Shown here in pieces: positions 20,550-31,148 of a DNA stretch of 64,000 bases (positions are counted from its first letter, which is position 1; the number at the start of each line of letters is the position of its first letter). The DNA is from Streptomyces fagopyri. GTDB lineage: Bacteria > Actinomycetota > Actinomycetes > Streptomycetales > Streptomycetaceae. The position numbers and the translations under genes are program-made. The stretch lies in contig NZ_CP045643.1 in the NCBI RefSeq assembly GCF_009498275.1, forward strand, positions 1,860,001-1,924,000. The letters are read 5' to 3'. The notes below the pieces were generated by a model, which was given only the letters and a program-made list of their open reading frames with translations, was not told where the DNA came from and searched no databases.

Positions 20550-21500
20550 TCAGGTGCGCCTCCTGACGGTGCGGCGGGACACGTGCCGCGCGTCCAGGCC
20601 GGACAGACCGCGCACGGCGACGTACGCCTTCTCCCGGCCCGGCAGCGAGACGCGGCCGCGCAGCACGGCCTCCGGCTCCCGCTCGATGCGGTCGAGCAGC
20701 CGCCGGTAGATGCCGGCCATGGCGGCGACACAGGCGCCGCTGCGCCGGTCCAGCATGGGCAGCAGCCGGTAGCCCTCGGCGAAGAGGGTGCGGGCCCGTC
20801 TCACCTCGAAGTGCACCAGGCCCGCGAAGTCGGAGCCCTCCGGCGGCGTCGGCCCGTCGAACCCGGCCGAGCAGCCGAACTTCGCGAGGTCGTCGGCCGG
20901 CAGATAGGTGCGCCCGTCGCCCGCGTCCTCACGCACGTCGCGCAGGATGTTGGTGAGCTGGAGCGCGAGCCCGAGCGTGTCGGCATACTCCGGCGCGCGT
21001 TCGGCGCCGCGCGCCCCCGGTTCCGTACCGAACACGCCGAGCGACAGCCGCCCGATCGCCCCGGCCACACACCGGCAGTACACCTTCAGGTCGTCCCAGG
21101 TCTCGTACGTCTCACCGCGCACGTCCATCAGGACGCCGTCGATGAGCTCGTCGAGGCCGCCGAGCGGCACCGGGAAGTACGCCGCGGTGTGACTGAGGGC
21201 GACCGCGACCGGGTCGGTGTCGTCCTCGTCGACCCGGCCCTCGCGGACCCGGGTGAGCAGCGCCCTGGTGTCCTGGAGACGGGCCGCCTTCACATCCGGT
21301 GCCAGCGTGCCGTCGCCGATGTCGTCGACACGCCGTGAGAACGCGTAGAGCGCCGACATCGCACGACGCTTGGGCGTCGGGAGAAGTCGGATGCCGTACG
21401 CGAAGTTACGCGCCTGCTGACCGGTCACTGCCTCGCAGTAGCTGTAAGCGGCGAGTACCGGTGCGGACACGTGTTGTTCCGACTCCACGGTCCGGATCAC
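20550..21500 (-). CDS. hpnD: Presqualene diphosphate synthase
   Basis: 316 residues of the squalene/phytoene synthase family. The two Asp-rich motifs are RVDDIGD (59-63 for DDIGD) and RDVREDAGDGRTYLP (Asp188, Asp192). HpnD couples two farnesyl diphosphates into presqualene diphosphate. GTG at 21500 overlaps the hpnC TGA by four bases (GTGA), as is usual for this pair. The C-terminus ends in an Arg-rich tail. Distinguished from HpnC by the SALYAFSRRVDDIGDG and ETWDDLKVYC blocks and by position. Confidence 0.93.
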   Translation of the reverse strand: MIRTVESEQHVSAPVLAAYSYCEAVTGQQARNFAYGIRLLPTPKRRAMSALYAFSRRVDDIGDGTLAPDVKAARLQDTRALLTRVREGRVDEDDTDPVAVALSHTAAYFPVPLGGLDELIDGVLMDVRGETYETWDDLKVYCRCVAGAIGRLSLGVFGTEPGARGAERAPEYADTLGLALQLTNILRDVREDAGDGRTYLPADDLAKFGCSAGFDGPTPPEGSDFAGLVHFEVRRARTLFAEGYRLLPMLDRRSGACVAAMAGIYRRLLDRIEREPEAVLRGRVSLPGREKAYVAVRGLSGLDARHVSRRTVRRRT

Positions 21501-22399
21501 CCCTTTCCTCGCAGAGTCACTCCCACCTCGCGCAGCAACTGGAGCTTGCCGGGCTTGGGCGGGCCGGGAAGTACGTCGTATTCAGCGGCGGCGATCGCAC
21601 GGATCGCCGCCCTTCCCCCCGCAACGAACCCCGCGAGCAGCAGCTTCAGCCTGCCGTGGACGCTACCCACGAGGGGGGTGCCTTCATTCAGGAGGTGGAG
21701 CGCGCGTTCTGCTTCGTATGCAACCAGCGCGCGCGCCGATGCGCCTGCTGTGGCCGTGGCGAGGTCCGCCTCCTGGACATGGAAGCGCTTCATGTCCTCG
21801 GCGGGCAGGTAGACACGGTCGCGGCCCAGGTCCTCGGCCACGTCCTGGAGGTGCTCGACGATCTGCAGCGCCGTGCACACCGCGTCCGAGCGGCGGATCC
21901 GCTCGGGCGTCGAGGTGCCGGTGACCGAGAGGACCAGGCGGCCCACCGGGTTGGCGGACAGCTCGCAGTAGGCCAGCAGGTCGTCCCACGTCTCGTACCG
22001 GGTGACGAGCTGGTCCTGACGGTTGGCCCCGATCAGGCCCAGGAAGGGCTCGTGGGTGAGGCCGGCGCGGCGGACCGTGGGCTGGAGGCGGCGCAGCAGC
22101 GGGTGGAGCGGGGTCGCGTCGAACACCCGGTGGAGGTCCGCCTCGAGGGCGTCAAGGAGGACGAGACGGTCCTCGGCCTCCTCGGGCGACACGCCGAGCA
22201 GCCGGGCGTCCGTGCCGCCGGGGGCCAGATCCCCGTCCCCGATGTCGTCCACGAGGCGCGCGAAACCGTAGACCGCCATCAGGTCGTCGCGCCAGGCCCT
22301 GGGCAGGAAGAAGGGCGCGACGGGGAAGTTCTCGTCCGCGGCCTTGTCGAGGGTGCCGCGCTCCGGATCTCCGGTGTGGGCCGTACGGGCTTCGGTCAC
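21497..22399 (-). CDS. hpnC: Hydroxysqualene synthase
   Basis: 300 residues from the preferred GTG at 22399 (310 from an alternative GTG at 22429). First Asp motif RLVDDIGDGDLAPG near 51; second EHLQDVAEDLGRDRVYLP. NFPVAPFFLPRAWRDDLMAV near the N-terminus is characteristic of HpnC. It turns presqualene diphosphate into hydroxysqualene for HpnE. First gene of the ten-gene hopanoid operon, about 240 bases below the proposed promoter. The start is uncertain because neither GTG has a strong ribosome site. Confidence 0.92.
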   Translation of the reverse strand: MTEARTAHTGDPERGTLDKAADENFPVAPFFLPRAWRDDLMAVYGFARLVDDIGDGDLAPGGTDARLLGVSPEEAEDRLVLLDALEADLHRVFDATPLHPLLRRLQPTVRRAGLTHEPFLGLIGANRQDQLVTRYETWDDLLAYCELSANPVGRLVLSVTGTSTPERIRRSDAVCTALQIVEHLQDVAEDLGRDRVYLPAEDMKRFHVQEADLATATAGASARALVAYEAERALHLLNEGTPLVGSVHGRLKLLLAGFVAGGRAAIRAIAAAEYDVLPGPPKPGKLQLLREVGVTLRGKG

Positions 22400-22602
22400 C
22401 GCTCGCCGCCCGGCGCGGGGACGGCACACGCATCGCGGAGCTGGAGAGTTTCCGTAGCCATTGCCGTCACATCTCCCGTTCTACACTGCCGACCCAATAC
22501 TGCCCATTTCGGACACGCCGCCCGGAGGTCCGCGCAGCGCGCGGGTACCGGGCGTCGCGCAATATCGCCCCACTTGCCGCGATTCAGCACCGGTACAGCT
22601 TA

Positions 22603-22670: not shown

Positions 22671-22712
22671 GATTCCTAAGGACAGCAGGAGTTGGCTTTT
22701 CCTTCGCAGACG

Positions 22713-22746
22713 CAGGGCCCCGCCGAACCGTTCCGGCGGGGCCCTG
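22713..22746 (-). terminator. Terminator of the glycoconjugate/ABC operon
   Basis: Perfect 13-bp GC-rich stem (22713-22725 with 22734-22746), eight-base loop, 11 bases after the ABC ATPase stop. It should keep transcription of the seven-gene cassette from running into the hopanoid operon. Confidence 0.75.
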
Positions 22747-22757
22747 GGCGCGTGGGG

Positions 22758-23531
22758 TCATTTGCCCGTGAACTTCTCGTACTCCTTGAGGACCTCTTCG
22801 GTCGGCCCGTCCATGCGCAGCTCGCCGCGCTCCAGCCACAGCACACGGTCGCAGGTGTCGCGGATCGACTTGTTGTTGTGGCTGACCAGGAAGACGCTGC
22901 CCGCGCTCTTGCGCAGCTCGCGGATCCGCTGCTCGGAGCGCTTCTGGAAGGAGCGGTCGCCGGTGGCCAGCGCCTCGTCGATCATCAGCACGTCGTGGTC
23001 CTTGGCCGCCGCGATCGAGAACCGCAGCCGCGCCGCCATGCCGGAGGAGTACGTCCGCATCGGCAGCGTGATGAAGTCGCCCTTCTCGTTGATGCCCGAG
23101 AAGTCGACGATCTCCTGGTAGCGCTCCTTGATCTGCTCACGGGACATGCCCATCGCGAGGCCGCCCAGGATGACGTTCCGCTCGCCCGTCAGGTCGTTCA
23201 TCAGGGCGGCGTTCACGCCGAGCAGCGAGGGCTGGCCGTCGGTGTAGACCTTGCCCCTCTCGGCGGGCAGCAGTCCGGCGATGGCCCGCAGAAGCGTGGA
23301 CTTGCCGGAGCCGTTGGAGCCGATCAGGCCGATCGCCTCACCGCGGTAGGCGGTGAAGGTGACGCCCTTGACGGCGTGCACCTTGCGCACGCCCCGTTCC
23401 TCGCCGCGCTTGATGATGCGGCTGAGCGCGGCGGTGGCGCTGCCCTTGCCGGTCTTGGCGCCGTTCACGCGGTAGACGATGTGGAGCTCGTCCGCGATGA
23501 CGGTGGGGATGTGGGACACCTGGTCAGCCAC
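22758..23531 (-). CDS. ABC exporter ATPase, TagH/Wzt-type
   Basis: 257 residues. Walker A GSNGSGKST, signature region YSSGMAARLRF (degenerate, as in Wzt/TagH), Walker B DVLMIDEALATGD, H-loop LVSHN. It closely follows the polysaccharide/teichoic-acid exporter ATPases in lacking a C-terminal sugar-binding domain, so it probably handles a lipid-linked product without end-group recognition. GTG at 23531 overlaps the permease end by eight bases. Last gene of the cassette and followed by a hairpin. Confidence 0.9.
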   Translation of the reverse strand: MADQVSHIPTVIADELHIVYRVNGAKTGKGSATAALSRIIKRGEERGVRKVHAVKGVTFTAYRGEAIGLIGSNGSGKSTLLRAIAGLLPAERGKVYTDGQPSLLGVNAALMNDLTGERNVILGGLAMGMSREQIKERYQEIVDFSGINEKGDFITLPMRTYSSGMAARLRFSIAAAKDHDVLMIDEALATGDRSFQKRSEQRIRELRKSAGSVFLVSHNNKSIRDTCDRVLWLERGELRMDGPTEEVLKEYEKFTGK

Positions 23532-24453
23532 GGCCGTACCTCTCTTCCGCCTTCCAGAAGTACACGAAACCGCCGACGGCGACGAGCACGGCCCAGAAGG
23601 TGGCGATCGCCCACACGTGCGGCGGCAGGTGGGAGGCTCCGTAGCCGTCGATGAGCGCGTAGCGCATCAGGTCCATGTAGACCGCGGCCGGGTTCACCTG
23701 GAGCACGCGGATGACCCACTCGGGGCGGCCCACGAGCATGTTGCTGATGGAGAACATGACGCCCGAGGTGTACATCCAGGTGCGCAGGATGAACGGCATC
23801 AGCTGGGCGAGGTCGGGGGTCTTCGCGCCCAGCCTGGCCACGATGAGCGCGAGGCCGGTGTTGAACAGGAACTGCAGCACCAGCACGGGCACGATCAGCA
23901 GCCAGGACAGACCCGGGTAGCTGCCGAAGGCGATCGCCACGACGAACAGCACGAGCATCGAGAACAGCAGCTGCTGGAGCTGCTGGAGCGCGAAGGAGAT
24001 GGGCAGTGAGGCGCGCGGGAAGTGCAGCGCGCGTACCAGCCCGAGGTTGCCCGAGATCGCCCGGACGCCGGCCATTATCGAACTCTGGGTGAAGGTGAAG
24101 ACGAAGACGCCGGTCACCAGGAAGGGGATGTACGTGTCGTGCGACATGCCCCGGCTGGCCTTCAGGATCAGGCCGAAGATGAAGTAGTACACGGCCGCGT
24201 TCAGCAGCGGCGTCGCCACCTGCCACAGCTGGCCGAGCTTGGCCTGGCTGTACTGGGCGGTGAGCTTGGCCTGCGAGAACGCGAGGATGAAGTGGCGCCG
24301 CCCCCACAGCTGACGCACGTACTCGACGAGGCCGGGCCGGGCGCCGCTGACCGCGAGCCCGTACTTTCCGGCCAGCTCGGCGGCGGAGAGCCCGTCATCG
24401 GGCGACGGGCGGTCGCTCACCGCGACCGCGCCGTCCTGCGTTGTGTCACTCAC
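23524..24453 (-). CDS. ABC-2-type exporter permease, TagG/Wzm-type
   Basis: 309 residues with about six membrane helices: segments near SFAL/YYFIFGLIL, FLVTGVFVFTFT, LLFSMLVLFVVAIAF, LLIVPVLVLQFLF, MPFILRTWMYTSGVMFSI and the C-terminal IATFWAVLVAVGGFVYFW. This is the Wzm/TagG exporter pattern for teichoic acids, O-antigens and glycolipids. GTG at 24453 is the likely start, though no Shine-Dalgarno is visible and an upstream GTG at 24510 is in frame. Forms the transporter with the overlapping ATPase. Confidence 0.88.
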   Translation of the reverse strand: MSDTTQDGAVAVSDRPSPDDGLSAAELAGKYGLAVSGARPGLVEYVRQLWGRRHFILAFSQAKLTAQYSQAKLGQLWQVATPLLNAAVYYFIFGLILKASRGMSHDTYIPFLVTGVFVFTFTQSSIMAGVRAISGNLGLVRALHFPRASLPISFALQQLQQLLFSMLVLFVVAIAFGSYPGLSWLLIVPVLVLQFLFNTGLALIVARLGAKTPDLAQLMPFILRTWMYTSGVMFSISNMLVGRPEWVIRVLQVNPAAVYMDLMRYALIDGYGASHLPPHVWAIATFWAVLVAVGGFVYFWKAEERYGRG

Positions 24454-24551
24454 AAGGGGAAACTTTCGTCTTCGGATGCGCACGGCCGGGTCGGGCGGGG
24501 CAGTGGGCACGGAACCGGGGTCGGGACCACACGCTCACAGGAACGAGCTTG

Positions 24552-25436
24552 TCAGATGACGGGAGGACGGCCCAGTCTGGTCAGCCGCCACACCGTACGC
24601 CACTTCATGGGACGCCTCCGGCCGCACGAGCTGGTCCAGCCCTCCTTGAAACCGCCGAACCAGGCCTTCAGCGCCGGTCCGGAGGGGCGGCGGGCCAGCG
24701 TCAGGAGCATCCACACGCCCAGATAGACGGGGACGAGCGGCGCGGGAAGGTTTCGGCGGGCGAGCCAGACGCGGTTGCGGGCCACCATGCGGTGGTAGAC
24801 CGCGTGCCGCGAAGGCGCTGTCGTCGGGTGGTTCAGCACCATGTCGGACCGGTAGTCGATCATCCAGCCCGCGTCGAGCGCCCGCCAGGCCAGGTCGGTT
24901 TCCTCATGGGCGTAGAAGAACTCGTCCGGGAGCCCGCCGACCTGACCGAAGACCTTCGTACGGACGGCGTTGGCGCCGCCGAGGAAGGTGGTGACGCGGG
25001 AGGAACGCATCGGGTCGGAGGCCCGCAGCCGCGGCACGTGACGGCGCTGGGTCTCGCCGGTCTCCGGGTCGGCGATACGGAAGCTGACGATGCCGAGCGC
25101 CGGGTCGGCGGTGAAGGCGCGGCGGCACAGCTCGGCGGTGTCGTGGGTGGCGAGGAGCCCGTCGTCGTCGAGGAAGAGCAGGATGTCGACGTCGGCGCCG
25201 CCGGGTCCGAAGGCCTCGATGCCGACGTTGCGGCCGCCGGGTATGCCGAGGTTCTCGGGCAGCTCGACGGTGCGTACGCCCTCCGGGACGTCCGGGACGG
25301 GCGAGCCGTTGCCGACCACGACCACCTCGACCCGGTCACCGTCCTGCTTGGCCACGGAGTCCAGCAGGGCCCGGAGCTCGTCGGGGCGGTTGCCCATGGT
25401 GATGATCACCGCGCCGACCTTCATCGCCGCGCTCAC
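24552..25436 (-). CDS. Family-2 glycosyltransferase
   Basis: 294 residues of the GT-A fold: N-terminal VGAVIITMGNRPDELRALL, nucleotide-binding NLGIPGGRNVGI, metal-site LFLDDDGLL (near 90), and FYAHEETDLAWRALDAGW as the catalytic ED-like region. A C-terminal hydrophobic stretch (VPVYLGVWMLLTL) may attach it to the membrane. GTG at 25436 overlaps the preceding stop (GTGA); ATG at 25424 is an alternative. It probably adds a sugar to the lipid- or polyol-phosphate built by its neighbours. Confidence 0.87.
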   Translation of the reverse strand: MSAAMKVGAVIITMGNRPDELRALLDSVAKQDGDRVEVVVVGNGSPVPDVPEGVRTVELPENLGIPGGRNVGIEAFGPGGADVDILLFLDDDGLLATHDTAELCRRAFTADPALGIVSFRIADPETGETQRRHVPRLRASDPMRSSRVTTFLGGANAVRTKVFGQVGGLPDEFFYAHEETDLAWRALDAGWMIDYRSDMVLNHPTTAPSRHAVYHRMVARNRVWLARRNLPAPLVPVYLGVWMLLTLARRPSGPALKAWFGGFKEGWTSSCGRRRPMKWRTVWRLTRLGRPPVI

Positions 25437-26212
25437 TTCAGCCTGCTGGAGGCGAGGATGGACACGAGGTGCAGCAGGGTCTGCACGAGCGCGATGCCCG
25501 CGAGCACGGCGGTGCCGAGCCGGGTGAAGAACAGGTCGCCCCTGGCCTGGTCGGCGATCGCGAGGACCAGGATCAGCAGCGACGCCTCGATGCCGAGGAT
25601 CAGCCGGTGGAACTTGAGCGCGCCCGCGGCCCGGCGCGCGAGGGCCATGCCGGAGGAGCGGGGCTCGGACGCCGCCTCCTTGACCGGCGGCAGTCCGCCC
25701 TGGTGGCGGGCCACACCGACGAGGTCGGTCTCGGCCTTGACCAGGATCGCGCCGAGGGCGGCCAGGGTGCCGAGGAAGGCCCACAGCCAGTCGACGCGCC
25801 CGGCGCCCCACAGGTCGGCGGCGCGCAGCCCGAGGCCGACGAGGACGGCCGCGTCGGTCAGATAGGCGCCGACGCGGTCCAGGTAGACCCCGCCGAGCGA
25901 GTACTGCTTCTTCCACCGCGCGATCTCGCCGTCGACGCAGTCCAGCAGCAGGTACAGCTGGACCGCGACCACGCCGAGCACGGCGCCCGCGATCCCCGGC
26001 ACCAGCAGGGCCGGGGCCGCGAGCACACCGCAGACGGTCATCAGGTACGTGAGCTGGTTGGGCGTGATCCTGGTGTTCACCAGGTAGCGGTCGCAGCGCA
26101 GCGAGATCTCTCGCATGTACAGGCGTCCCGCCCAGTGCTCACCGCTGCGCCGGTCCTTCACCCCTGCGGGATGAACGACGGGGCGGAGTTCAGCTACTGA
26201 TGGCCTTGGCAT
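25433..26212 (-). CDS. CDP-alcohol phosphotransferase, membrane enzyme
   Basis: 259 residues. The full signature of the family is present near residues 90-120: DCVDGEIAR, then GGVYLDR and YLTD (DGxxAR, GxxxD, D). Four to six hydrophobic segments surround it. Such enzymes move a phospho-alcohol from a CDP-activated donor to an acceptor alcohol with loss of CMP. The N-terminal 35 residues are soluble. It overlaps the dehydrogenase gene by 23 bases and the glycosyltransferase by four. Donor and acceptor are unknown. Confidence 0.9.
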   Translation of the reverse strand: MPRPSVAELRPVVHPAGVKDRRSGEHWAGRLYMREISLRCDRYLVNTRITPNQLTYLMTVCGVLAAPALLVPGIAGAVLGVVAVQLYLLLDCVDGEIARWKKQYSLGGVYLDRVGAYLTDAAVLVGLGLRAADLWGAGRVDWLWAFLGTLAALGAILVKAETDLVGVARHQGGLPPVKEAASEPRSSGMALARRAAGALKFHRLILGIEASLLILVLAIADQARGDLFFTRLGTAVLAGIALVQTLLHLVSILASSRLK

Positions 26213-27251
26213 AGTCGGAGTAGATGTCCTTGATCTGGTGGGTTTTCAGGTCGAGGTGTTCGAGGATCGTGTAGCGGCCTGGCCGGGTCTGCGGGGCGAA
26301 CTCCACGACCTGGACGAACTCGTCCACCGTGAAGCCGATCTCCTCGGGCAGCACCGGCAGCCCGTGGCGGTGCAGCACCTCGGCCATGTGCACCGACTCC
26401 TCGTGCGCCCCCCGCAGGTACATCGCGAAGGCCGCCCCCAGTCCGCACTGCTCGCCGTGGCTCGCGGCGCGCTTGGGGAAGAGCAGGTCGAAGGCGTGGT
26501 TGATCTCGTGGCAGGCGCCCGACGAGGGCCGTGAGTCGCCCGAGACCGACATGGCGATACCGCTGAGGACCAGCGCCTCGGCGAGCACCTGGAGGAAGCC
26601 GGTGTCCCCGATGCCGCCGGGGTGGCGCAGCACGGCCTCGCCGGCCTGCCGTGCCATCGCGGCGGCCAGGCCGTCGATCTTCTCGCCGTTGACGCGGTTG
26701 GCCAGCTCCCAGTCCGCGATCGCGGAGATGTTGGACACGGCGTCACCGATGCCGGCCCGGACGAAGCGCACGGGGGCCTCGTGGATCACGTCGAGGTCGA
26801 TGACCACGGCGATCGGGTTCGGCACGCCGTAGGAGCCGCGGCCTGCGTCGTTGTCGAGCGTCGCGACCGGGGAGCACAGGCCGTCGTGCGCGAGGTTCGT
26901 CGGGACGGCGACCAGCGACAGCCCGACCCGCGCCGCGGCGAACTTCGCGCAGTCGATGATCTTGCCGCCGCCCAGGCCCACGACCGCGTCGTAGTGCCCT
27001 GCCCTTATGTCGCCGGCCAGCCGGACCGCGTCGTCGAGGGTGCCGCCGCCGACCTCGTACCAGGTGGCGCCGGGCAGCGCGGGGGCGAGCCGCTCGCGCA
27101 GCCGCGCGCCGGAGCCGTTGCTGACGGCGACGGCGAGCTTGCCCGAGTGGGAGATCCGCTCGTCGGAGAGCACGCTCGCCAGGTCGTCCAGGGCACCTCG
27201 ACGGATGTCGACGACGACCGGCGAGGGGATGAGCCTCGTCAGTACTGGCAC
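26190..27251 (-). CDS. Glycerol-1-phosphate-dehydrogenase-like enzyme (AraM/EgsA family)
   Basis: 353 residues of the iron-type alcohol dehydrogenase superfamily. GLGGGKIIDCAKFAA (near 92) binds NAD(P); PTNLAHDGLCSP, SSGACHEINHAFD and ASHGEQCGLG match the substrate and metal motifs of sn-glycerol-1-phosphate dehydrogenases such as AraM and archaeal EgsA. If correct, it reduces dihydroxyacetone phosphate to sn-glycerol 1-phosphate, the mirror form of the normal bacterial glycerol phosphate. GTG at 27251 overlaps the cytidylyltransferase end by 13 bases. Activity is inference. Confidence 0.85.
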   Translation of the reverse strand: MPVLTRLIPSPVVVDIRRGALDDLASVLSDERISHSGKLAVAVSNGSGARLRERLAPALPGATWYEVGGGTLDDAVRLAGDIRAGHYDAVVGLGGGKIIDCAKFAAARVGLSLVAVPTNLAHDGLCSPVATLDNDAGRGSYGVPNPIAVVIDLDVIHEAPVRFVRAGIGDAVSNISAIADWELANRVNGEKIDGLAAAMARQAGEAVLRHPGGIGDTGFLQVLAEALVLSGIAMSVSGDSRPSSGACHEINHAFDLLFPKRAASHGEQCGLGAAFAMYLRGAHEESVHMAEVLHRHGLPVLPEEIGFTVDEFVQVVEFAPQTRPGRYTILEHLDLKTHQIKDIYSDYAKAISS

Positions 27252-27991
27252 GCGATCTCACGTCCCTTGGCGAGGTCGTCGTGGTTGTCGATCTCGACCC
27301 ACTTGATGTCGCCGATCGGTGCCACGTCGATCCGGAAGCCGCGGTTCACGAGCTCCTGGTAGCCGTGCTCGTAGAACTGCTGCGGGTCCGTCTCCCACAC
27401 CGTCTTCAGGGCGTCGGCCAGGTCGGCCGCGGCCTCGCCCTCGATGAGGGTGACGCCGATGTACTCGCCGGTGGCCTCCGAGGGATCCATGAGCTTGGTG
27501 ATCTTCCGGACCCCCTTGTCGGGGTCCACGACGACCTTCATCTCCTCGTCGGCGAGCTTCTTGACCGTGTCGAGGGCGAGGATGATCCGCTTGCCCTCGC
27601 CACGGGCGGCGAGCAGCGTCCTCTCGACGGAGACCGGGTGCACGGTGTCGCCGTTGGCGAGGATCACACCGTCCGTGAGAGCGTCACGGCCGCACCACAG
27701 GGAGTAGGCGTTGTTCCACTCCTCGGCCTTGTCGTTGTCGATGAGCGTGATCCTGAGGCCGTACTTCTCCTCCAGGGCCGCCTTGCGGTCGTAGACGGCT
27801 TCCTTGCGGTAGCCGACGATGATGCCGACCTCGGTCAGGCCGATCTCGGCGAAGTTGCCGAGGGTCAGGTCCAGGACCGTGATGCTGTCCTCTATGCCCG
27901 CGGGACCAACCGGCACGAGAGCCTTGGGGAGGCTGTCGGTGTAGGGGCGCAGACGCCGTCCGGCGCCGGCCGCCAGCACGAGGCCGATCAT
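27239..27991 (-). CDS. LicC-like nucleotidyltransferase (probable CTP:polyol-phosphate cytidylyltransferase)
   Basis: 250 residues. N-terminal LAAGAGRRLRPYTDSLPKAL is the nucleotidyltransferase signature; EWNNAYSLWCGRDAL resembles the NNxYS motif of LicC-type phosphocholine cytidylyltransferases; ILANGDTV carries a metal-binding Asp and VEIDNHDDL the second. It should activate a phospho-alcohol as a CDP (or other NDP) ester. The neighbouring glycerol-1-phosphate-dehydrogenase-like enzyme suggests CDP-glycerol, but choline or another polyol is not excluded. ATGA overlap with the preceding gene. Confidence 0.85.
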   Translation of the reverse strand: MIGLVLAAGAGRRLRPYTDSLPKALVPVGPAGIEDSITVLDLTLGNFAEIGLTEVGIIVGYRKEAVYDRKAALEEKYGLRITLIDNDKAEEWNNAYSLWCGRDALTDGVILANGDTVHPVSVERTLLAARGEGKRIILALDTVKKLADEEMKVVVDPDKGVRKITKLMDPSEATGEYIGVTLIEGEAAADLADALKTVWETDPQQFYEHGYQELVNRGFRIDVAPIGDIKWVEIDNHDDLAKGREIACQY

Positions 27992-29799
27992 GCGGGTTCT
28001 CCTTCATCGTGTACGGCGGGCGCACCGCCCAAATGAGCGGTCACCCAGAAGTGGATGCTCTCGAAGAGCACCAGCACGGCCACGGCCACGGCGAGCACCG
28101 TGAGCGCGACCTCGAACTGTGCGGCGGTGAGCACCGCGGCCAGGACGGTGACCAGCAGCGTCCTGCCCTCGTGGCCGCCGGTCGCCCGCACCAGCCACCG
28201 CGGCGGCGCGCCCGCGTTGCCGCGGATGCGGTACACCGTGTCGTAGTGATGGTAGGCGACCGCGGCCACCAGGCCGAAAGCCGCGGGAAGTGCTCCGTTC
28301 ACGTCGGCTTTGGCTGCCAGTACCAGAACGGTGAGGTACTCGGCGGCGCGGAAGACCGGGGGGACCAGCCAGTCGAGGGCGCCCTTGAGCGGGCTGACGA
28401 CGGCTATGGCGGACATGAGCGTGTAGACGACGGCGAACAGGACGGTCTGCCAGCCGGAGCCCCACAGCACGGCCGAGGCGACCACGAGGAAGCCGCCGAC
28501 GAGCGCGCTGACGGGCGCCGTGTGCCGGGCGGTGCCACGCGCGAGGCGGACCAGCAGTCCGGCGAGCGGTCCGCTGTCGGTGAGGTCGGCCAGCGCCTGC
28601 GCCGCCCGGTCCGTGCGCCGGGCCTTGCGGGTCAGCGAGCGCAGCACCCGGCCCGCCGTGGTGTACGTCGCGGCGAAGGCGCAGCCGACGAGGAGCGCGT
28701 AGAAGGTGATCCGGGGTGTGGTCAGCGCCGTGAGAACGGCGATCATCGCCCATCGTTCGCCGATGGGCAGGACTATCATCCGGCGCACCCAGACCGTCCA
28801 GCCGACGCTGTCGAGCTTGCCGGAGAGGGCCGCGGTGGGGCTGGTGTTGGCGGTGGCGTCGTGGTTCGCCTCGTTGAAGGAGAAGTCGACGACGTGCCGG
28901 CAGGTCTGGAGGATCATCGCGCCCAGGGCGAGCGCCCACACGTCGTCGCCGCCGCGGGCGGCGCCGAGCGCGAGGCCCGCGTAGTAGGCGTACTCCTTGG
29001 CACGGTCGAAGGTCGCGTCCAGCCAGGCGCCGAGTGTCGAGTACTGCAGGGAGTAGCGGGCCAGCTGCCCGTCGGTGCAGTCCAGGACGAAGGAGAACAG
29101 GAGCAGCAGGCCGGCGGCGACGAACCCGGCGCGGGTGCCGGTGGCGGCGCAGCCCGCGGCGATCAGCGCGGTCAGCAGTGAGGCGGTGGTGACCTGGTTC
29201 GGGGTCAGGCCGCGACGGGCGCACCAGCGGGCGATGTAGCGGGAGTACGGGCTGATGCAGTACGTGGTGAAGAAGCCGTCGCGTGCCTTCACGGCGCCGC
29301 GCAGCCGGACGGCCTCGTCGTCCACGGCGGAGACGGCCTGCCGGCGCTCGTTGCGCTCCTGCGGGTCGGTGGGGACGGCGGCCACCAGAGAGCCCAGTTC
29401 CGGGCGGTACACGGCGACGCCGTCCGCGTCGAGGGCCGCGGTGAGACGCCCCGCGAGATTGTCGGTCGCGACGGCCAGGCCGCCGGACTCGGAGCTCTCG
29501 CGGGCCATCGCGCGGGTCAGCGCCCGGCGGGCCTCGGGCTGCACCGACACGGCGCCGGGCACCGCGGAGGCCGGGAACCGGGGGTCCGTGAGGCCGAGGC
29601 GCAGGGCGTGCGGGTGGCCGACGAAGCGGGCGTCGACGACGGCGACCCGCTCACCCGCCGGTACGGCGGCCAGCAGGGTCTCGGCGTCACCGGCTTCGGC
29701 GGCGGACCGTACGTCGAACCCGAGCGACCGCAGATCGCCCTCGAGCGACGATCCGGGGACCGGCTGGCCGGTGAGGATGGCGGTCGACAGCGAACTCAC
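27988..29799 (-). CDS. Large CDP-alcohol phosphotransferase with DUF5941-like C-terminus
   Basis: 603 residues. The first 190 form a soluble alpha/beta region with no motif I can name (VVDARFVGHPHAL, GAVSVQPEARRALTRAM). A CDP-alcohol phosphotransferase core follows with DCTDGQLAR, GAWLDATFDR and AKEY near 255-285 and several helices. From about 440 a second block of membrane helices resembles the actinobacterial DUF5941. First gene of the cassette; GTG at 29799. The AGGGA directly in front is too close for a good ribosome site, so the start may be misplaced. Reaction partners unknown. Confidence 0.85.
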   Translation of the reverse strand: MSSLSTAILTGQPVPGSSLEGDLRSLGFDVRSAAEAGDAETLLAAVPAGERVAVVDARFVGHPHALRLGLTDPRFPASAVPGAVSVQPEARRALTRAMARESSESGGLAVATDNLAGRLTAALDADGVAVYRPELGSLVAAVPTDPQERNERRQAVSAVDDEAVRLRGAVKARDGFFTTYCISPYSRYIARWCARRGLTPNQVTTASLLTALIAAGCAATGTRAGFVAAGLLLLFSFVLDCTDGQLARYSLQYSTLGAWLDATFDRAKEYAYYAGLALGAARGGDDVWALALGAMILQTCRHVVDFSFNEANHDATANTSPTAALSGKLDSVGWTVWVRRMIVLPIGERWAMIAVLTALTTPRITFYALLVGCAFAATYTTAGRVLRSLTRKARRTDRAAQALADLTDSGPLAGLLVRLARGTARHTAPVSALVGGFLVVASAVLWGSGWQTVLFAVVYTLMSAIAVVSPLKGALDWLVPPVFRAAEYLTVLVLAAKADVNGALPAAFGLVAAVAYHHYDTVYRIRGNAGAPPRWLVRATGGHEGRTLLVTVLAAVLTAAQFEVALTVLAVAVAVLVLFESIHFWVTAHLGGAPAVHDEGEPA

Positions 29800-30170: not shown

Positions 30171-31148
30171 ATGACATGGCTGATCACAGGCGGGGCCGGA
30201 TACATCGGGGCACACGTGGCGCGGGCGATGACGGAGGCCGGTGAGCGCGTCGTCGCCCTGGACGACCTCTCCGCCGGGGTGGCGCGGCGCCTCCCGGAGA
30301 GCATCCCGCTGGTACAGGGTTCGTCCCTGGACGGAGACCTGCTCAAGCGGGTTCTCGCGGAGCACGCGGTGACGGGTGTGGTGCATCTCGCGGCGCGCAA
30401 GCAGGTCGGTGAGTCCGTGGAGCAGCCCACCCGCTACTACCAGGAGAACGTGGGCGGTCTCGCGACGCTTCTGGAGGCGGTGGCCGGGGCGGGCGTGCGG
30501 CGGTTCCTCTTCTCCTCGTCCGCGGCCGTCTACGGCAATCCGGACGTGGACCTCATCACGGAGGACACCCCGTGCGCGCCGATGAGCCCGTACGGCGAGA
30601 CGAAGCTCGCCGGGGAGTGGCTGGTGCGGGCGGCGGGCCGGGCGCACGGAATCGCGACGGTGTGTCTGCGCTACTTCAACGTGGCGGGCGCGGCCGGCCC
30701 GGAGCTCGCCGACACCGGGGTGTTCAACGTGATCCCGATGGTCTTCGACCGTCTCACCCGTGGCGAGGCCCCGCGGATCTTCGGTGGCGACTATCCGACG
30801 CCGGACGGCACCTGCGTCCGGGACTACATCCATGTCGCCGACCTCGCCGAGGCGCACCTGGCGGCGGCACGCCGGCTGGCGGGTGACGCGACGGGCGACC
30901 TGACCGTGAACATCGGCCGGGGCGAGGGCGTCTCGGTACGTGAACTGCTCACGCTCATCGCCGAGGTCAGCGGTGACACCCGGGAGCCGGTCGTCGAGCC
31001 GCGCCGTCCCGGTGACGCCCCGCGCGCGGTCGCCTCGGCAGGGCTGGCCGCCCGGGAGCTGGACTGGGGCGCGCGGCGCGGGGTGCGCGAGATGGTCGCG
31101 TCGGCGTGGGAGGGATGGCGACTTCATCACCCCCCGACACAGGGTTAA
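30171..31148 (+). CDS. UDP-glucose 4-epimerase-like NAD-dependent epimerase
   Basis: 325 residues of the extended short-chain dehydrogenase family. NAD motif GGAGYIGAH at 7-15, FSSSAAVYG for the catalytic Ser, and YGETK for Tyr and Lys, then LRYFNVAGA and DYIHVADLAEAH as in GalE. It probably interconverts UDP-glucose and UDP-galactose or the N-acetyl forms. Being next to the glycoconjugate cassette, it may supply a sugar donor to that glycosyltransferase, though it is on the other strand. Leaderless, and closed by a 16-bp hairpin. Confidence 0.88.
   Translation: MTWLITGGAGYIGAHVARAMTEAGERVVALDDLSAGVARRLPESIPLVQGSSLDGDLLKRVLAEHAVTGVVHLAARKQVGESVEQPTRYYQENVGGLATLLEAVAGAGVRRFLFSSSAAVYGNPDVDLITEDTPCAPMSPYGETKLAGEWLVRAAGRAHGIATVCLRYFNVAGAAGPELADTGVFNVIPMVFDRLTRGEAPRIFGGDYPTPDGTCVRDYIHVADLAEAHLAAARRLAGDATGDLTVNIGRGEGVSVRELLTLIAEVSGDTREPVVEPRRPGDAPRAVASAGLAARELDWGARRGVREMVASAWEGWRLHHPPTQG

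Follow-up and report, generated by a model that had tools for sequence, protein, structure and literature searches.

A seven-gene actinomycete cassette with a probable role in making and exporting a decorated, phosphate-containing polymer or lipid of the cell envelope

Bacterial surface structures do contain sn-1 glycerol phosphate, drawn from donors other than cytidine diphosphate (CDP)-1-glycerol, and passages of a 2021 paper (PMC8262930) hold the latter donor to be likely absent from bacteria. Here we describe a cassette of seven genes, A to G (Table 1), in a stretch of 64,000 nucleotides of the Streptomyces fagopyri genome (contig NZ_CP045643.1, positions 1,860,001 to 1,924,000; henceforth referred to as ‘the window’), whose products probably synthesise and decorate a phosphate-containing polymer or lipid of the cell envelope and export it. 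Genes A and D encode CDP-alcohol phosphotransferases, B a LicC-like nucleotidyltransferase, C a dehydrogenase of the glycerol-1-phosphate dehydrogenase (G1PDH) type, E a glycosyltransferase, and F and G an ABC exporter. Several described systems resemble parts of this set. C shares a superclade, an SRPxSG insert and conserved Asp/His/His positions with archaeal EgsA and Bacillus AraM; unlike them, it belongs to a separate lineage, confined among the loci examined to Actinomycetota, and is paired with a cytidylyltransferase in a genome where a search for PcrB, known as the bacterial enzyme that uses sn-glycerol 1-phosphate (G1P), gave no match. The exporter may be of the TagGH kind known from wall teichoic acid synthesis (Tag/Tar), and loci of relatives have LCP and TagF-like neighbours; in contrast to Tag/Tar, the cassette has CDP-alcohol phosphotransferases instead of TagB/TagF-type transferases, together with a G1PDH-type dehydrogenase, and the S. 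fagopyri genome contains no TagD (TIGR01518) match at E ≤ 0.001. The Cps3/Cps7 systems of A. pleuropneumoniae, which make a TagF-type poly(glycosylglycerol phosphate) capsule, share CDP-glycerol and glycosyl transfer with the route proposed here, and differ in using sn-glycerol 3-phosphate in vivo and TagF-like polymerases (passages of PMC8262930). Protein A has the domain order of the archaeal nucleotidyltransferase–CDP-alcohol phosphotransferase fusions IPCT-DIPPS and AF2299, from which it differs by a short N-terminal domain without the usual nucleotidyltransferase motifs and by an added C-terminal DUF5941; it is 10–11% identical to the eukaryotic enzymes CHPT1/CEPT1, from which a predicted CDP-glycerol donor would also set it apart.

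We tentatively favour the view that the cassette specifies an actinomycete cell-envelope phosphoglycoconjugate, most likely a teichoic-acid-like wall-glycopolymer unit. In the steps proposed, C would, judging from its family, reduce dihydroxyacetone phosphate to G1P; B, from its fold and its coupling to C, would combine G1P with CTP to give CDP-1-glycerol; and A, from structure prediction, would load glycerol phosphate onto an acceptor lipid of the membrane, which may be polyprenol-linked. D may use another acceptor or assist A, E would add sugar, F and G would carry the lipid-bound product outward, and the genome's LCP ligases, whose genes lie outside the cassette, may link it to the wall. 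This proposal has a computed basis in gene content, conservation and B-C coupling, together with the position of C in the tree, the loss of a signature residue from D, the fold predicted for A and the wall-polymer context in relatives. The specific version, in which an actinomycete CDP-sn-1-glycerol pathway (G1P dehydrogenase plus LicC-like cytidylyltransferase) supplies an A of CHPT/CEPT architecture that loads a lipid carrier for an envelope polymer, with help from a His/Ala-variant D, is possible, and we hold it with less assurance still.

The kind of system, an envelope phosphopolymer, is known; two enzymological features would be new if borne out. On the donor side the novelty would be CDP-1-glycerol, since the proposal would place in bacteria a route that parts of PMC8262930 hold to be likely absent, within a gene set whose D occurs in 199 of 199 Streptomyces genomes drawn. 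On the transferase side, A would be a candidate for a CDP-alcohol phosphotransferase of bacteria that has the additional helices seen in lipid-acceptor enzymes of eukaryotes; the cassette would also offer a testable function for DUF5941 and a natural variant of a catalytic Asp called absolutely conserved in passages of PMC4634129.

Dehydrogenase C and nucleotidyltransferase B

Against the Protein Data Bank (PDB), C scored 142 bits with 4rgq/4rfl (archaeal G1PDH) and 141 bits with 3ce9, compared with at most 67 bits for most entries titled glycerol dehydrogenase, although 3ce9 itself bears that title. In alignment, C retains the SRPxSG insert before a His, an xDG motif where GldA has TDAP, and an Asp/His/His pattern whose residues we take to be the metal ligands, with differing residues beside one His. 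A 50-row IQ-TREE phylogeny contained four G1PDH-type lineages: the cassette clade (98/98), a 3CE9-like clade (96/96), archaeal EgsA and a pair that we take to be AraM-type, made up of 9h4x and a Shinella protein annotated as G1PDH. A 100/100 split set the four together apart from HcxA, GldA, a Labrenzia enzyme and a glycerol-dehydrogenase-like protein of Halobacterium. A reading of the window made from sequence alone (henceforth ‘the sequence-only reading’) had named C a G1PDH-like enzyme and had set against itself a grouping with non-G1P alcohol dehydrogenases; no such grouping was found, as C falls with the G1PDHs and not with GldA, HcxA or the Halobacterium protein. A 2016 alignment of G1PDHs includes a Streptomyces EgsA/AraM sequence, which may be the counterpart of gene C, and the accompanying phylogeny has a group of Gammaproteobacteria and Actinobacteria among bacterial G1PDHs (parts of PMC5059525). 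Dehydrogenase C suggests that the building block is sn-1 (archaeal-type, mirror-image) glycerol phosphate. In Bacillus subtilis G1P is used for an ether lipid (passages of PMC4244643), a use that is unlikely here because PcrB had no match. Outside the cassette, genes of the 3CE9 type are often preceded by a HAD-family phosphatase gene (15 of 26 compared loci, three members Pfam-checked; for example L097:1549-2241, L098:7014-7724 and L104:7018-7743), which would fit conversion of dihydroxyacetone phosphate to glycerol via glycerol phosphate.

The best PDB match of B is LicC (1jyk), at 51 bits over residues 3–111 only, and the inositol-1-phosphate and phosphonate cytidylyltransferases 4jd0 and 6pd1 gave 28–29 bits. 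Its motifs LAAGxGxRL..T..LPK, NGDT and WxExD are conserved in all ten aligned rows. These matches place B among nucleotidyltransferases related to LicC and to the inositol-phosphate and phosphonate cytidylyltransferases, a kinship that does not tell the substrate. A LicC-type B could also imply phosphocholine or phosphoethanolamine decoration, with A or D transferring phosphocholine, as the public annotation of B (‘phosphocholine cytidylyltransferase family protein’) and the resemblance of A to CHPT1 would allow. We regard this as very improbable, since none of the seven genes encodes a choline kinase, a choline transporter or LicD, a dehydrogenase partner would be left without a role, and the LicC match spans only the first half of B.

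Evidence for a joint role of B and C comes from their distribution. We compared 40 stretches (up to 20 kb) around DUF5941 places in genomes other than Streptomyces, chosen to spread over genera, in which the presence of A to G was scored by tblastn with our own bit thresholds. B was found at all 24 loci with C; of the 25 loci with B, only L047 had no nearby C, and there C lies ~10 kb from B on the same contig. Sixteen genomes were searched whole for B and C (12 with one or both missing at the fetched locus and 4 with loci not fetched): C was present in five and B in the same five, as overlapping neighbours in four. A separate scan with a G1PDH alignment named 80 loci, of which nine actinomycete ones were examined closely. 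At all five Micromonosporaceae loci (Salinispora, Micromonospora, Catellatospora) B-C is followed by a CDP-alcohol phosphotransferase of another type with an intact signature (the Salinispora one Pfam-checked), and none has an A or D of cassette type. That B-C repeatedly adjoins different phosphotransferases speaks most strongly for the two jointly making a CDP-activated donor, and the co-occurrence survey upholds B and C as a coupled pair. At L128, in a Stackebrandtia metagenome-assembled genome, B, C and a permease gene adjoin a polysaccharide lyase family 8 gene. An assignment of family f17 to Micromonosporaceae was dropped, given that L147 (Nocardiopsaceae) stands in the tree beside L061 of that family and that the Micromonosporaceae loci lack cassette-type A and D.

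Phosphotransferases A and D

The eight-residue signature D..DG..AR..G...D...D is complete in A and invariant in alignment A4 (24 rows), and all four of its Asp residues are kept in 32 of 32 A-type proteins in which a motif search found the motif. Outside that count lie nine of the 40 loci (L052, L058, L061, L062, L065, L066, L071, L074 and L075) at which A is split in two with DUF5941 kept; the six N-terminal parts inspected no longer have DxxDGxxAR. In the predicted model of A, DUF5941 overlays the C-terminal helices of CHPT1/CEPT1, as judged from aligned ranges and lengths, so that A has a predicted extra C-terminal transmembrane module of the kind that marks a lipid-acceptor architecture; among the structures that A resembles is 8ul9, a choline phosphotransferase solved with diacylglycerol. 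According to passages of PMC4634129, all prokaryotic CDP-alcohol phosphotransferases characterised by 2015 use soluble acceptors. By sequence, D and the core of A are closest to AF2299 and IPCT-DIPPS, which would suit a soluble osmolyte or phosphodiester (of the di-glycerol phosphate, glycerophosphoinositol or di-inositol phosphate type) with no exported conjugate. This explanation is barely credible to us given the polymer-type ABC exporter and GT2 glycosyltransferase in the same gene run, the predicted lipid-acceptor architecture of A and the wall-polymer neighbours in relatives.

In marked contrast to A, D does not have an intact signature: the fourth Asp is replaced by Ala116 in S. fagopyri and by His in most relatives. 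This Asp is the likely catalytic base, and its change to Asn nearly abolishes the activity of a PIPS (passages of PMC4634129). D has a match in every one of the Streptomyces genomes drawn, the weakest best E being ~1e-110. From its motif, D would be a further phosphotransferase with an atypical catalytic site, whose part may be to serve a different acceptor or to help A. Five loci (L002, L055, L063, L068 and L070) have an A-type DUF5941 phosphotransferase and no other cassette genes; at all five a cis-prenyltransferase (uppS-like) gene, its family taken from one representative, adjoins it or lies one predicted open reading frame off.

Exporter, relatives and the weighing of readings

G has TagH as its best NCBIfam match (182 bits, cut-off 320). 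F is 72% identical over 283 residues to the permease, and G 89% identical over 253 residues to the ATPase, of a TagF-like locus elsewhere in the S. fagopyri genome. The genome has four TagF-like places at 5.625–5.647 Mb (L184, L185), with a cassette-like exporter there, yet no TagD match. At the 40 loci of relatives, LCP ligase genes were present in 26, TagF-like genes in 14 and either in 31; the genes were called by a simple GC-frame picker, which misses and mis-starts genes, and the counts are of its clusters with one Pfam-checked representative each. The LCP base rate in the S. fagopyri genome alone is 11 places in 8.88 Mb, or ~0.025 per 20 kb. Exporter similarity and these neighbours point to a wall glycopolymer. 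If glycerol phosphate were instead placed on diacylglycerol or a glycolipid, the product would be a lipoteichoic-acid-like anchor or membrane glycolipid that F-G flip but that never becomes attached to the wall. This alternative would explain the likeness of A to choline phosphotransferases, including the one solved with diacylglycerol, and the lack of LCP and TagF-like polymerase genes in the cassette; it would also accord with the Salinispora B-C-phosphotransferase locus, where no A, D, F or G match occurs in the 16.7 kb read. We judge it unlikely in view of the LCP or TagF-like genes at 31 of the 40 relatives' loci and the closeness of the exporter to that of the genome's own TagF-like locus.

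Within the class, 109 of 394 genomes, and 40 of 137 genera sampled, have DUF5941, the domain that marks A. Of the 24 loci (out of 40) with both B and C, 23 also have D and 22 have D and E; the patterns are ABCDE (10), ABCDEFG (9), BCDEFG (3), ABCDFG (1) and ABC (1). Without the B-C pair the patterns are AB (1), ADEFG (4), ADEG (2), ADFG (1), ADEF (1), ADF (1), AFG (2) and A alone (4). A different, MobA-like nucleotidyltransferase (cluster c25, one member Pfam-checked) occurs at L050, L082, L083, L084 and L085, which have A and D without B or C; it adjoins the exporter at 5 of 11 loci that have A and D, or the exporter, without B and C, and its substrate could point to an alternative CDP-alcohol.

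A number of results weigh against a G1P-based wall polymer. C scores 243.5 bits against the NCBIfam equivalog for G1PDH (NF002022), below the cut-off of 413; beside the presumed metal-ligand His it has Cys/Asp-His-Glu instead of Glu-His-Leu; and it is a lineage of its own, the branching order among the four G1PDH-type lineages being unresolved in the 50-row tree. A first FastTree, which included four distant paralogues from the S. fagopyri genome, placed C outside the G1PDH references; these rows were judged badly aligned and removed before the IQ-TREE rebuild, a removal that favours the G1PDH reading. Names can mislead in this family, because a Halobacterium protein formerly annotated as G1PDH proved to be a glycolaldehyde reductase (passages of PMC9700705; our tree row was equated with that enzyme by organism and plasmid location only). 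Neither B nor D has a match adjoining any of the 25 non-cassette G1PDH-like loci. The likeness of DUF5941 to CHPT is that of a predicted model, for which the top Foldseek match is AF2299 (4e-9) and CHPT/CEPT score 5e-3 to 8e-2, and the sequence profile matches CHPT weakly and in the CDP-alcohol phosphotransferase core (E 0.06–0.11). A domain search of the seven genes found no initiating transferase, TagF-like polymerase or LCP, and neither teichulosonic acid nor poly(diglycosyl 1-phosphate), reported as main and minor polymers of the Streptomyces wall, contains glycerol (passages of PMC11481543). A second IspD-like gene, at 6.14 Mb of the genome, might provide the TagF-like enzymes with a different CDP-polyol. 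Finally, A and D occur without B or C at 9 of the 40 loci and A with the exporter only at two more, and both B and C are absent from 11 of the 16 genomes searched whole; since B and C are missing in several lineages, the part made up of A, D, E and the exporter may work with another CDP-alcohol.

Some of these points would suit a cassette still devoted to an envelope polymer in which C reduces another phosphorylated ketone and B activates the resulting polyol phosphate, giving a non-glycerol CDP-polyol: C is a separate lineage below the G1PDH cut-off with altered residues at its presumed metal site, and B is only distantly like LicC and 4jd0/6pd1. We think this unlikely, because C keeps the G1PDH-type insert and the DG motif and falls within the G1PDH superclade, and the domain search revealed no other polyol-specific enzyme in the cassette. 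The CDP-glycerol route put forward in the sequence-only reading is thus upheld in part: the grouping of C with G1PDHs, the B-C coupling, the lack of PcrB and TagD matches and the wall-polymer-like context speak for it, and the score of C below the NF002022 cut-off speaks against it.

The same reading knew of no described product. None was found in the literature searched, nor was a functional paper on the cassette or DUF5941, but a region syntenic to the cassette appears in a 2026 list of clusters associated with teichoic acid biosynthesis (part of PMC13118837).

Gene arrangement and flanking features

Coordinates and domain searches placed the seven minus-strand genes as the sequence-only reading had them (Table 1). 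Its description of most genes as overlapping holds for A/B (4 nt), B/C (13 nt), C/D (23 nt) and F/G (8 nt), but D-E and E-F are separated by gaps of 8 nt and ~98 nt, respectively; A to E form one tight block and F-G a second. We set the start of E at the ATG at 25424, and not at the start of a 454-residue open frame, because the S. fungicidicus orthologue is 873 nt long, and that of F at about the GTG at 24453, and not at 24510, because the orthologue there has 311 residues. The S. fungicidicus annotation has an identical gene order with galE in the same place. This shared order, the presence of D throughout Streptomyces and that of B and C at 24 of the 40 other loci indicate that the arrangement is not due to chance.

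Table 1. Features of the cassette and its flanks (positions in the window; residue numbers refer to the protein)
Feature	Position	Strand	Description
A	27988-29799	minus	603 aa; CDP-OH_P_transf + DUF5941; degenerate nucleotidyltransferase-like domain ~1-165, CDP-alcohol phosphotransferase ~170-390, DUF5941 397-603
Signature of A	29005-29082	minus	CDP-alcohol phosphotransferase signature D240..D243G..A247R248..G257..D261..D265, 8/8 residues present
DUF5941 of A	27991-28611	minus	PF19365, 305 bits; predicted extra transmembrane module
B	27239-27991	minus	250 aa; NTP_transferase PF00483, 39 bits; LicC-like nucleotidyltransferase, predicted CTP:polyol-phosphate cytidylyltransferase
C	26190-27251	minus	353 aa; Fe-ADH_2 PF13685, 94 bits; dehydrogenase of G1PDH superclade
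D	25433-26212	minus	259 aa; CDP-OH_P_transf; CDP-alcohol phosphotransferase fold
Variant signature of D	25865-25942	minus	D91..D94G..AR..G108..D112..A116; read from sequence, alignments A3 and A5
E	24552-25424	minus	GT2 glycosyltransferase; PF00535, 47 bits
F	23524-24453	minus	Wzm/TagG-type ABC2 permease; PF01061, 57 bits
G	22758-23531	minus	Wzt/TagH-type ATPase, 257 aa
Stem-loop 3' of G	22690-22757	minus	-41.1 kcal/mol, z -4.0; possible terminator between cassette and hopanoid operon
galE	30171-31148	plus	UDP-glucose 4-epimerase, divergent, upstream of cassette; TIGR01179, 312 bits, cut-off 262

The sequence-only reading also had a terminator separating the cassette from the adjacent hopanoid operon. 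The stem-loop found 3' of G is strong, but it has no T-run and a pattern scan gave no call, so that its acting as a terminator is plausible. Immediately downstream and in the same orientation come the hpnD/hpnC homologues of the hopanoid operon (window 20550-22429), as in S. fungicidicus. We take the S. coelicolor counterparts of the cassette genes to be SCO6752-6756 and SCO6758, going by the numbering of the hopanoid cluster and by the identity of idi with sco6750. That identity comes from a table in a paper on the sigma-E regulon (PMC6767563), in whose main text sco6750 is the sole match to ‘sco675’. Upstream, galE is a possible supplier of sugar for E, and a gene of the galE cluster is also present at L049 and L080.

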